This document shows positions 13,306 through 16,273 of a stretch of 43,435 bases of DNA, one piece after another. Numbering within the stretch: position 1 is the stretch's first letter; every line of letters begins with the position of its first letter. Under the pieces are notes generated by a model. It was not told the DNA's origin. It made no database searches and worked only from the letters and a program-made list of their open reading frames with translations. Made by a program: the position numbers and the translations under genes. The stretch is from Terriglobia bacterium (GTDB taxonomy: Bacteria > Acidobacteriota > Terriglobia > UBA7540): assembly GCA_020072655.1 (NCBI GenBank), contig JAIQGH010000010.1, forward strand, positions 1 through 43,435. The letters are read 5' to 3'.

Positions 13306-13524
13306 ATGGCAAAGGTCCAGAAGTCGACTGACTCCTCGAGCCTGGCTGAAGTCGTCGATCGGATTCTCGACAAGGGGATCGTGATCGACGCCTGGGCGAA
13401 GGTCTCGCTCGTCGGGATCGAGTTGCTGTCGGTCGAAGCCCGCGTCGTGATCGCCTCGGTCGAGACCTACCTGAAGTACGCCGAGGCCATCGGTCTGACA
13501 GCCACTGCTGCGGCTCCTGCCTAA
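13306..13524 (+). CDS. gvpA: Gas vesicle major structural protein GvpA
   Basis: 72 residues, the usual GvpA length. The core [21 protein letters not shown] is followed by [31 protein letters not shown], giving the alpha-beta-beta-alpha fold that polymerises into the gas-filled, gas-permeable shell ribs. The ATG at 13306 has GGAAGGAGA 6-8 bp upstream, one of the strongest ribosome-binding sites in the window, fitting high expression. It is preceded by a dedicated promoter region and followed by a strong hairpin that would let gvpA mRNA accumulate over downstream genes. It is the only full GvpA copy; gvpS and gvpJ are minor paralogues. Confidence 0.97.
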
Positions 13525-13548: not shown

Positions 13549-13585
13549 GCCAAGTGGGGGGTCGCTGTGCGGTCCCCCGCTTGGC
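13549..13585 (+). terminator. Strong hairpin after gvpA (attenuator or mRNA 3' stabiliser)
   Basis: A 12-bp stem with one G-T wobble: GCCAAGTGGGGG (13549-13560) against CCCCCGCTTGGC (13574-13585), loop of 13 nt. No T-run follows, so full intrinsic termination is not expected. It lies 25 bp after the gvpA stop and 46 bp before the next gene, and likely protects a short gvpA transcript or partly stops polymerase. Confidence 0.65.
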
Positions 13586-13630: not shown

Positions 13631-13921
13631 ATGGGCAAATTGTTGGAGGACATGACTCGGCTGGCTGGCGAGGTCCAGGAGTTGCGCGGAAGACGCCAGG
13701 TGTTCAGGAAGGAACTCGCCGTCGGCAACCGGGATCGCCAGATGGACGTTTTCGAAATGTGCGCAGATTTCGCCGGCACTCAGAGACAGATCGCACAGGG
13801 GGCCAAGGAAGAGCGTTTGGCCTTTTTGAAGAATCTGAGACGGACCGTCGGTGGGCTGCAAAAGGGCATGAGGACAGACCTTGCTGCCGCGCGCCGCGTC
13901 TGGGCTGGCCGGGGGGCGTAG
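13631..13921 (+). CDS. Small helical gas vesicle-associated protein A (candidate GvpC analogue)
   Basis: 96 residues, not recognised by name. It is almost entirely predicted helix, rich in Arg/Glu/Gln, without Cys pairs or membrane segments. Phe-containing units recur after Arg: RRQVFRKEL (21-29), RQMDVFEM (36-43) and RLAFLKNL (62-69). It aligns without gaps over 93 positions to the protein at 14098, sharing for example MG.L..D.TRL..E (1-14), RL..... V.GL (62-76) and RTDL...R..W (81-91). Located right behind gvpA, where GvpC sits in cyanobacteria, and built of amphipathic repeats like GvpC, it could be a shell-reinforcing protein. That role is inference. It has GGAGGG 6 bp before the start. 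Confidence 0.75.
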   Translation: MGKLLEDMTRLAGEVQELRGRRQVFRKELAVGNRDRQMDVFEMCADFAGTQRQIAQGAKEERLAFLKNLRRTVGGLQKGMRTDLAAARRVWAGRGA

Positions 13922-14097
13922 CGACCGGGCGGAGGGCCCCGGAGGAAGAGTGGAAGGTTACCTTTGGAGTCGGCGTTTTGCCCCGCGGCTGGTAGTTGCC
14001 TGCCGGTATCCCCCTGGCACATCGGACGGAGGCAGGCCCGAACGGAAGGCCGCGGCGGCGATCATACCAAGATCAGAAACAGGGAGGCAAAATCATC

Positions 14098-14535
14098 ATG
14101 GGCGTGCTGACTCGCGACCTGACTCGATTACGAAACGAGATCCTGACCTCGCGAAATACTCGCCAGAGACTCATCCGTGATTTGGCGCAAGAGACCGTGG
14201 AGCGGCGGGCTGGCATCTCGCGGATGCTGATCGACATTTCCAAGGGCCTCGGCACGGTCGCCGGAAGAACGCGAGCCGACCGCTTGGACTCCATTTCGGA
14301 CGTCAAGCGGGCGGTTAGCGGCCTCTTGACGGAGGTTCGCACAGACCTCGGTGGCATCCGAGAAATGTGGCTCGCGCTGGGCACTCCATCGCGCCGGGTT
14401 GTGGAGGGTTTGAAGGGCCGTCCGGGAGGGGTCGCAGAGAACGTTGCGGATGAAAGCCAGCGTGAGACCCCCAGCGACTTTCCACCGGCGCACGGCCAAA
14501 GAGAGAAACGCGTGCGGAAAAAGCGGAAACGCTAG
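14098..14535 (+). CDS. Small helical gas vesicle-associated protein B, paralogue of the gene at 13631
   Basis: 145 residues. Residues 1-93 align gap-free with the preceding gene product (MG.L..D.TRL..E, RQ.....LA, RL.....V.GL....RTDL...R..W). A Pro/Gly/Glu-rich linker follows, with a strongly basic end (REKRVRKKRKR, 135-145) that the paralogue lacks. The pair arose by tandem duplication. As no other gene in the cluster could be GvpC, this is one of two candidates for an external coat protein; the basic tail could bind the acidic vesicle surface or nucleic acid. No function is established by sequence. ATG 14098 is preceded by GGGAGG at 9-10 bp. Confidence 0.75.
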   Translation: MGVLTRDLTRLRNEILTSRNTRQRLIRDLAQETVERRAGISRMLIDISKGLGTVAGRTRADRLDSISDVKRAVSGLLTEVRTDLGGIREMWLALGTPSRRVVEGLKGRPGGVAENVADESQRETPSDFPPAHGQREKRVRKKRKR

Positions 14536-14600: not shown

Positions 14601-15602
14601 ATGAATGGCGACAATGCGAAGTTGGCCTCTTGCGCTAGCGAAATGACTGGGCCGGGCGGACACAGCGTTGTGCCCGAGCCCAGCGCGGAATTCGTTTTGA
14701 CGCCGCAAATTCAAGAGCTAACGGCGCGGGCGCTGAGGTATCTGGAGGTGGGATACGCCGTCCATTTTGCCGGCCTGGCGGGAACGGGGAAGACAACGCT
14801 CGCTTTGCACGTTGCCGCGCAACTGGGCCGGCCGGTCGTGCTCCTGCACGGCGACGACGAGTTCGGAAGCTCGGACCTGATCGGCAAGGATTCCGGCTAC
14901 CGTCGGTATAAGCTCGTCGACAACTACATCCACTCAGTGATGAAGACCGAAGAGAGCCTGAGCACTCTTTGGGAGGATCACCAGCTCACCACGGCCTGCC
15001 TCAGCGGTTACACGCTCATCTACGATGAATTCAACCGTTCCCGGCCGGAGGCGAACAATGCGCTCCTCAGCATCCTGGAGGGAAGGGTTCTCAACCTGCC
15101 GAACTTGCGCCGGTCCGGCGAGGGATGCGTGCGCGTGCACGACGATTTCCGAGCCATCTTGACGTCCAACCCGGAGGAGTATGCCGGAGTCCACAAGACC
15201 CAGGACGCGCTGATGGACCGGCTCATCACCATCAACCTCGGCCACTTCGATCGTGAAACGGAGATTCAGATCGCGGAGGCGAAGTCGGGCCTTCCCCGCT
15301 CCGACGCGGAAAAGATCGTGGACATCGTCAGAGAACTTCGGGGCGTCGGGGTCAACAACCACCGCCCCACGATCCGGGCCTGCATTGCCATCGCGAAGAT
15401 CCTGGCGCGCGTCCAAAGCCGGGTGCGACTCGGGGACTCCACGTTCTGGTCGGTTTGCTACGACATTCTCAAGACGGACACGGCGAAAGTCACTCACGAT
15501 GGCCAGTCGCTGATGCTCGAAAAGGTTGAGGAAGCAATCCGGAAGGTCTGTGGGGACCATGCGAAGCGGCGGAAGAGCCATCGCCAGGAGCCTGCGGCGT
15601 GA
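14601..15602 (+). CDS. gvpN: GvpN, MoxR-like AAA+ ATPase of gas vesicle assembly
   Basis: 333 residues. Walker A GLAGTGKT (58-65), EFGSSDLIG (87-95), Walker B TLIYDEFNRS (138-147) followed by the MoxR-type insertion helix region EANNALLSILEGRVLNLP, sensor TSNP (188-191), and an arginine-finger region DALMDRL (202-208). This is the full GvpN pattern. Known role: GvpN is needed for normal vesicle enlargement and is thought to remodel or drive assembly with ATP. The N-terminal 30 residues are variable. It has AAGGA about 10 bp upstream and follows the two helical proteins by 65 bp. Confidence 0.95.
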   Translation: MNGDNAKLASCASEMTGPGGHSVVPEPSAEFVLTPQIQELTARALRYLEVGYAVHFAGLAGTGKTTLALHVAAQLGRPVVLLHGDDEFGSSDLIGKDSGYRRYKLVDNYIHSVMKTEESLSTLWEDHQLTTACLSGYTLIYDEFNRSRPEANNALLSILEGRVLNLPNLRRSGEGCVRVHDDFRAILTSNPEEYAGVHKTQDALMDRLITINLGHFDRETEIQIAEAKSGLPRSDAEKIVDIVRELRGVGVNNHRPTIRACIAIAKILARVQSRVRLGDSTFWSVCYDILKTDTAKVTHDGQSLMLEKVEEAIRKVCGDHAKRRKSHRQEPAA

Positions 15603-15615
15603 TAGGGGGACATCT

Positions 15616-15930
15616 ATGCCGATACCTCTAAGGGGCTTGCGAACCATCCGTACCTTGGCGGGTCGTCTCGACCGTGTCTGTGTTCCTCACCGGGCCCATC
15701 TACAGATCGCGTGTCTGGAAATCGAAAAGGCCCGGCGGGCCGCTGAGAGGATCAGCGCCAGCCGGCGGGTGGCCGAGCTCGATGCTCGTCTCTGCGCGAT
15801 CGAGGCCGAAGAAGCGGCCCTTTTCAAGCGTCTAGCCGACCGGAATAAAGAGAAGCCCGCCGGTCCATTGGCGGTCGGGGTGGCGCACACCCCGCCACGC
15901 GTTGCGGGGGCGCTCAGGATCCGGTACTAG
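15616..15930 (+). CDS. Small coiled-coil protein of unknown function in the gas vesicle operon
   Basis: 104 residues starting at ATG 15616, with AGGGGGA 5 bp upstream and 13 bp after gvpN. A basic N-terminus (IPLRGLRTIRTLAGRL) is followed by a long predicted coiled coil rich in Ala, Glu and Arg (EIEKARRAAERISASRR through AIEAEEAALFKRLADR, about 37-82), then a Pro/Val-rich tail. No catalytic or metal-binding motif is visible. It is not recognised as a named Gvp protein. Coding is supported by the clean ribosome-binding site and tight operon spacing. A structural or adaptor role is possible but unsupported. Confidence 0.7.
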   Translation: MPIPLRGLRTIRTLAGRLDRVCVPHRAHLQIACLEIEKARRAAERISASRRVAELDARLCAIEAEEAALFKRLADRNKEKPAGPLAVGVAHTPPRVAGALRIRY

Positions 15931-15970
15931 ACCCCTCAGGCAGGACTCAAGGAACGCAAGAAAATGGCCG

Positions 15971-16273
15971 ATGTACTCGGTCAGTCATGCCTTTGAGGAA
16001 AGGAGTCGGACGCCCTTGGGCGGAGGAAATTCCGAGGAAGCGGTGGGCGGGCGAAATCGTTCCAGACCTGAACTGGTGGAATGTTCTCCCCCCCCGGCTT
16101 GCCAGACCTTGCTTGCGCGCGTCTTGGACCTCCATGCCGCGGGACACAGCGCAGAGGAGATCGCTCGGCAGGTTCTCACGACCGAGCCTGAAAATGCCAT
16201 CTTCCGGGCTGCGATGCTGGTGGAGATCATCCTTCAGTACGCCCGCGGCGCCCGAGAGGAGGAAACGCCGTGA
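15971..16273 (+). CDS. Small protein of unknown function, coupled to gvpF
   Basis: About 100 residues from ATG 15971 (a TTG at 15902 would extend it by 23). The N-terminal half is low-complexity and basic. The C-terminal half is a well-formed helical segment, LLARVLDLHAAGHSAEEIAR followed by QVLTTEPENAIFRAAMLVE and IILQYARG, whose LHAAGHSAEEIAR portion looks like the start of an HTH. No known domain is assigned. Its TGA overlaps the GTG start of the following GvpF/L gene, so it is translated as part of the operon. The start is uncertain: the AAGGA upstream would better serve an out-of-frame ATG at 15964 that ends after ten codons. Confidence 0.6.
   Translation: MYSVSHAFEERSRTPLGGGNSEEAVGGRNRSRPELVECSPPPACQTLLARVLDLHAAGHSAEEIARQVLTTEPENAIFRAAMLVEIILQYARGAREEETP

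Follow-up and report, generated by a model that had tools for sequence, protein, structure and literature searches.

Paired short GvpC-like proteins encoded between gvpA and gvpN in an acidobacterial gas vesicle cluster

The gene pair and its surroundings

The window (the whole 43,435-nucleotide stretch of DNA analysed, from a soil Terriglobia bacterium) contains a gas vesicle gene cluster in the order response regulator, Hsp20/GvpH, CDC48-type ATPase, gvpF1, gvpF2, gvpA, two genes here called C1 and C2, gvpN, a small unnamed gene (15616), a small ORF (15968), gvpF3, gvpG and a double ArsA-like ATPase, and ends with gvpJ, a gene in the gvpK position and gvpJ2. Its central features are as follows:

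13306..13524, + strand: gvpA, main rib protein of the shell, 72 aa (PF00741, E 2.2e-16)
13549..13585, + strand: RNA stem-loop of 17 bp (3 G-U), 24 nt past the gvpA stop
13631..13921, + strand: C1, GvpC-like protein predicted to be a single helix, 96 aa (family between gvpA and gvpN; AlphaFold2 helix)
14098..14535, + strand: C2, 145 aa, paralogous to C1 and extended by a basic tail of 49 residues (identity to C1; tail composition)
14601..15602, + strand: gvpN, AAA+ ATPase, which closes the slot (AAA_5, E 1.5e-14; tblastn to annotated gvpN, at most 55% identity)
15616-15930: small helical protein ending in -RIRY, directly after gvpN (relatives in 98 loci)
15968-16270: small ORF before gvpF3, lineage-restricted (relatives in only 7 loci)

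The gvpA start was placed at ATG 13306 from the preceding AAGGAG ribosome-binding site, and a GGGAGG-like site lies upstream of each of C1 and C2. The two proteins are 31% identical over 96 residues with 0 gaps (E 4e-13 in a single BLASTP comparison). Their cores share a conserved N-cap (MGxLTxDMTRLxxEIxxLRxxR) and a conserved C-cap (R.DLAGARRAW.G), with about one repeat unit between the caps. C2 terminates in ...REKRVRKKRKR, and its last 49 residues hold 14 K/R versus 7 D/E. The gap-free paralogy, the position between gvpA (recognized by its PF00741 match) and gvpN, and the strongly basic tail of the second protein had all been claimed in an earlier note made from the DNA alone, and all three were borne out. 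So was its claim that the cluster holds no other GvpC candidate: PF01304, which recovers real GvpC (that of Anabaena) at 1e-75, gave 0 matches in the source genome and 395 others of the phylum, in a search that gave no match in any control genome. The ORFs downstream of gvpN were rejected as alternative candidates because they lie in the wrong slot and outside the C1/C2 family. Besides C1 and C2 themselves, a whole-genome search with C1 returned one chance-level match only. No fitting family for either protein was found in Pfam, NCBIfam or PHROGs, nor by a PDB sequence search. DUF7237 and TolA_bind_tri (E 0.14) were rejected as the identity of C1, and the phycobiliprotein matches (E 0.03) of the sequence searches with C1/C2 were taken as chance.

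The pairing of C1 and C2 is not fortuitous, since further genera of Acidobacteriota have the two genes arranged in this way. Identity of C1 to the C1 of other genera is 42–70%, compared with 31% to its own C2, which indicates that the duplication is old. A profile of just the two sequences found matches in 13 of 151 genomes, the source genome included, and the order gvpA, C1, C2, gvpN recurs in the fetched loci; one genome has a single copy, and another of the same family has three C genes, the last of them frame-broken (L059:674-1226). In 11 loci (L135, L139, L149, L155 and others) the order is gvpA-C-gvpA-C-gvpN, where gvpA and the C gene appear to have been duplicated as a unit. A basic end, defined as at least 5 K/R among the last 12 residues, is present in 44 of 120 family members. 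In some C2 proteins (L064:8516-9112, L100:6261-6851 and L101:8508-9164), the second half of the core is replaced by many short charged repeats (AEQERRQAEEAQALAK-like), followed by a basic end.

Two further kinds of protein were noted near the slot. Methylocella and Spartinivicinus have look-alikes of the -RIRY protein at the corresponding position; the -RIRY protein itself has no Pfam or NCBIfam match, and we regard it as a conserved, still unnamed accessory protein of gas vesicles. An acidobacterium (L059, roughly 250-680, - strand) and a gammaproteobacterium (L211:1616-2050) have a gene for a DnaJ-type zinc-finger protein (CxxCxGxG) in the interval from the C gene to gvpN.

The 46-nt segment that holds the hairpin after gvpA has a folding energy of -35.2 kcal/mol (z -6.2), compared with z -1.1 for the entire 106-nt spacer. 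In the relatives, the gvpA-to-C spacers have a median folding z of -3.7 and fall below -2 in 75 of 86, versus medians of -0.3 and -0.4 for the control spacers (C to gvpN and upstream of gvpA, respectively). The repeat search had missed the hairpin owing to the G-U pairs in its stem. An intrinsic terminator was rejected, as a U-tract was absent from all 86 spacers. A conserved hairpin that is not a terminator would suit a role in keeping GvpA abundant relative to the C proteins; it may guard the gvpA mRNA or lower read-through into C1/C2. For Anabaena, a GvpA:GvpC ratio of ∼25:1 has been reported (PMC9501494), and the hairpin could hold the output of GvpA as far above that of C1/C2 as such a stoichiometry would require.

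A family confined to the gvpA–gvpN slot

C1 and C2 are too diverged for pattern searches, and gvpN was therefore used as bait. It yielded 80 named loci (the groups being Acidobacteriota, Desulfobacterota, Poribacteria, Rokubacteria, Ignavibacteria, Calditrichota, Planctomycetes, Nitrospinia, Sumerlaeota, Victivallales and Proteobacteria). When a profile was seeded with 17 acidobacterial sequences, 135 of the 138 final members were found in the first pass. A family member lay between gvpA and gvpN in 65 of the 66 loci having both genes (approximately 10 phyla), and in 66 of 66 after one ORF start had been corrected by eye. The sole exception and the only two matches seemingly outside the slot were ORFs in the slot for which the start or end, as predicted, overlapped a neighbour; every family match truly sits between gvpA and gvpN. 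The profile also held on clusters unused in building it: among 369 genomes of a nitrosomonad's class, each of three gammaproteobacterial gas vesicle clusters had its slot protein, with scores of 41, 93 and 46 bits (E 7e-11 to 4e-27 for 5,000 proteins). In five whole genomes, all strong matches fell at gvp loci, the best match elsewhere reaching 12.9 bits in Desulforhopalus vacuolatus and ∼19–20 bits in two other genomes.

The gene in this slot is annotated as gvpC in Nostoc sphaeroides and Halobacterium salinarum, and as "hypothetical protein" on plasmids of Methylocella, Methylosinus, Spartinivicinus and Octadecabacter. At 34 bits, and with a period of 33, the protein from Methylocella matches the family; that of Methylosinus does so weakly and that of Spartinivicinus marginally, and the Octadecabacter protein gave no match to the family profile. 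A full-text literature search found no description of C1/C2-type proteins in Acidobacteriota.

Resemblance to GvpC

Many relatives of C1 and C2, notably in Desulfobacterota, are longer (174–392 aa) and consist of 2–5 tandem units. When each protein was self-aligned at every lag and compared with shuffles of itself, the dominant lag of these tandem relatives was 33 (mean z 5.9, n = 38), followed by 40 (33+7) and 73. GvpC of Anabaena (z 18.4) and of Nostoc (z 16) has the same lag of 33. The single-domain forms gave weak peaks at lags 18 and 40; C1 and C2, with about one unit between two caps, lack the length needed for the 33 period to appear. A single GvpC repeat of 33 residues covers about four GvpA molecules of the rib in Anabaena vesicles (PMC10185304), so that the number 33 is plausibly the footprint of the shell lattice. 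Several tandem proteins of Desulfobacterota and others (L166, L134, L168, L185 and L158) carry a C-terminal helix-hairpin-helix domain resembling one appended to the phasin PhaH and to ribosomal protein L21; this end is possibly a handle for a partner.

Whether this shared period reflects common descent was weighed with profiles. Profile A6 (50 segments, built without GvpC) scored 40.6 bits against GvpC of Anabaena and 40.2 bits against that of Nostoc (E 3e-9 and 5e-9 at Z 177,635), a lead that depends on summed repeats because the best single GvpC domain reached only 21–24 bits. In both proteins, A6 matched three gap-free domains in constant register. Among 177,635 PDB sequences, the best score was 31.1 bits (apolipoprotein A-IV), which the single-domain GvpC scores do not exceed, and all others, coiled coils included, stayed at or below 20.7 bits. 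Controls with a sister profile gave at most 1.2 bits for reversed GvpC and at most 7.9 bits for 300 plain shuffles; shuffles that keep the 33 period reached 20.8 bits. The single-domain profile A4 scored 14–18 bits against GvpC, which is inside the PDB helix background. In the reverse direction, a GvpC profile ranked slot proteins 1st to 19th among 13,266 ORFs, and 36 of its top 50 were slot proteins (which make up 1% of the ORFs), at E values of only 1e-4 to 3. The Anabaena sequence used here was checked by its PF01304 match at 1e-75; it also matches TIGR02641 at 3e-59 (it served as the positive control), and the fetched Nostoc GvpC behaves alike.

Common descent of the C1/C2 family and GvpC is, judged by these sequence comparisons, likely. 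The competing view is convergence, in which any helix lying on the GvpA lattice evolves a 33-residue period, so that function but not descent would be shared. The failure of other tools to link the families speaks for it: hhalign against GvpC gave probabilities of at most 5% and did not beat shuffles in two of five subgroups, and with E values up to 10 allowed, neither PF01304 nor TIGR02641 matched either window protein or any of nine tandem relatives. The haloarchaeal repeat model PF05465 was not listed for C1/C2 and reached only E 0.11 in one tandem relative. That apolipoproteins, with helical periods of 11 and 22 residues, are the best PDB scorers points the same way. Against convergence stand the gap-free constant register over three domains, the 40-bit scores with reversed GvpC near zero, and the identical gene slot, all of which favour descent. 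Considering both sides, we give convergence an appreciable, but less than even, chance.

The predicted shape is in keeping with a GvpC-like protein. AlphaFold2 modelled C1 as one helix (residues 2–91, pLDDT 95.8, 50-sequence alignment), which would be the form expected of GvpC; the tandem relative L126 was modelled as all-helix at low confidence from a two-sequence alignment. Family-averaged hydrophobicity peaks at 100 degrees with modest support, the peak being reached by 17 and 77 of 1000 permutations; the amphipathicity of C1 alone or C2 alone was not significant. Foldseek with the lone helix gave no match among the PDB and viral models.

Of the closest known systems, cyanobacterial GvpC (PF01304/TIGR02641; Anabaena flos-aquae, Nostoc) occupies the same slot, is helical, has the 33-residue repeats of the tandem relatives and gives the ∼40-bit profile match in constant register. 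The C1/C2 family differs in being unseen by the two cyanobacterial models and in its MTRL and ARRAW caps, and C1 and C2 in being short, paired and about one repeat unit long. Haloarchaeal GvpC (PF05465; Halobacterium salinarum) has the same gene slot as C1/C2 and helical repeats of 32–39 residues (PMC9501494). However, the Halobacterium protein is 382 aa long and acidic, with a globular C-terminal part, scores 17–26 bits against the family profiles and has no 33 period (z -0.8). In Serratia sp. ATCC 39006, mutation of gvpC lowered the collapse pressure from 0.43 to 0.14 MPa, and GvpC homologues are conserved in seven proteobacteria (PMC4982088), which may include tandem members of the C1/C2 family; this non-cyanobacterial, strengthening GvpC is likened to C1/C2 by its published description. 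Apolipoproteins A-I/A-IV/E (PF01442) also form long amphipathic helices with periods of 11 and 22 and match tandem members weakly, under the Pfam cut-off, but they are lipid-binding proteins of animals, and the likeness is one of helix type only. GvpC outside cyanobacteria is thus already known, from Halobacterium and Serratia. What is new is this family, with its spread over many phyla, its being missed by public models and its minimal paired form.

Proposed role and its alternatives

The earlier note had read the two proteins as possible non-cyanobacterial GvpC. The functional part of this reading is supported: a GvpC-like protein is favoured by the conserved gvpA–gvpN slot, by the period of 33 residues seen in tandem relatives, by the profile similarity and by the predicted long helix. 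Filing under PF01304 is withheld for want of a match, and the family is called GvpC-like. C1 and C2 are probably a pair of short, divergent GvpC-like shell braces. Each core would form one α-helix of ∼90 residues, made up of N-cap, about one repeat unit and C-cap, which, by analogy with GvpC, would run along the ribs outside the GvpA shell. Scaled from 33 residues per about four subunits, such a helix would span ∼11 GvpA and might stiffen the vesicle wall against collapse. The basic tail of C2 could make further contacts, perhaps with the surface of GvpA, which is acidic, with an adjacent helix or with an assembly factor. An extension of this model, which we consider doubtful, is that GvpC is supplied here as a two-gene kit, with two capped single helices tiled end to end along each rib in place of one protein whose number of 33-residue repeats is fixed.

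The same helices could instead act in vesicle nucleation, as coiled-coil assembly factors or as adaptors that deliver GvpA to GvpN, CDC48 or the GvpF proteins, and stay outside the mature coat. The hydrophobic columns of the N-terminal half (1, 4, 8, 11, 15, 18, then 25, 29) have the 3–4 spacing typical of coiled coils, the profile sees single-helix forms as similar to designed coiled coils, both genes adjoin gvpN, and haloarchaeal GvpC binds several accessory Gvps (PMC9501494). However, the tandem relatives have a period, 33, that fits a GvpC helix lying on the lattice of GvpA and is no heptad signature, and the slot is that of gvpC rather than of an assembly factor, which makes this role unlikely. 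Nor do we find it at all probable that the labour is divided, with C1 as the shell brace and C2 as a tether that uses its basic tail to hold vesicles to nucleic acid, to a membrane or to each other. Although these old paralogues differ consistently (C1 without a tail, C2 with a basic one) and basic ends are as frequent as noted above, such tails also occur in sole-copy members (L131, L170) and hence are not specific to a second gene, and no nucleic-acid-binding motif was detected.

GvpC sets the strength of gas vesicles and is a main engineering handle for ultrasound reporters. In many clusters the slot protein is missed by the Pfam and NCBIfam models of GvpC and so probably carries only a "hypothetical" label, an annotation gap that the C1/C2 family fills across about ten phyla. 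If the two-gene kit were true, brace length and vesicle stiffness would be set by assembly and the C1:C2 ratio, not by repeat number. The family includes the shortest GvpC-like proteins in this analysis and can serve to test, from sequence, which features of GvpC are truly demanded by the lattice of GvpA.
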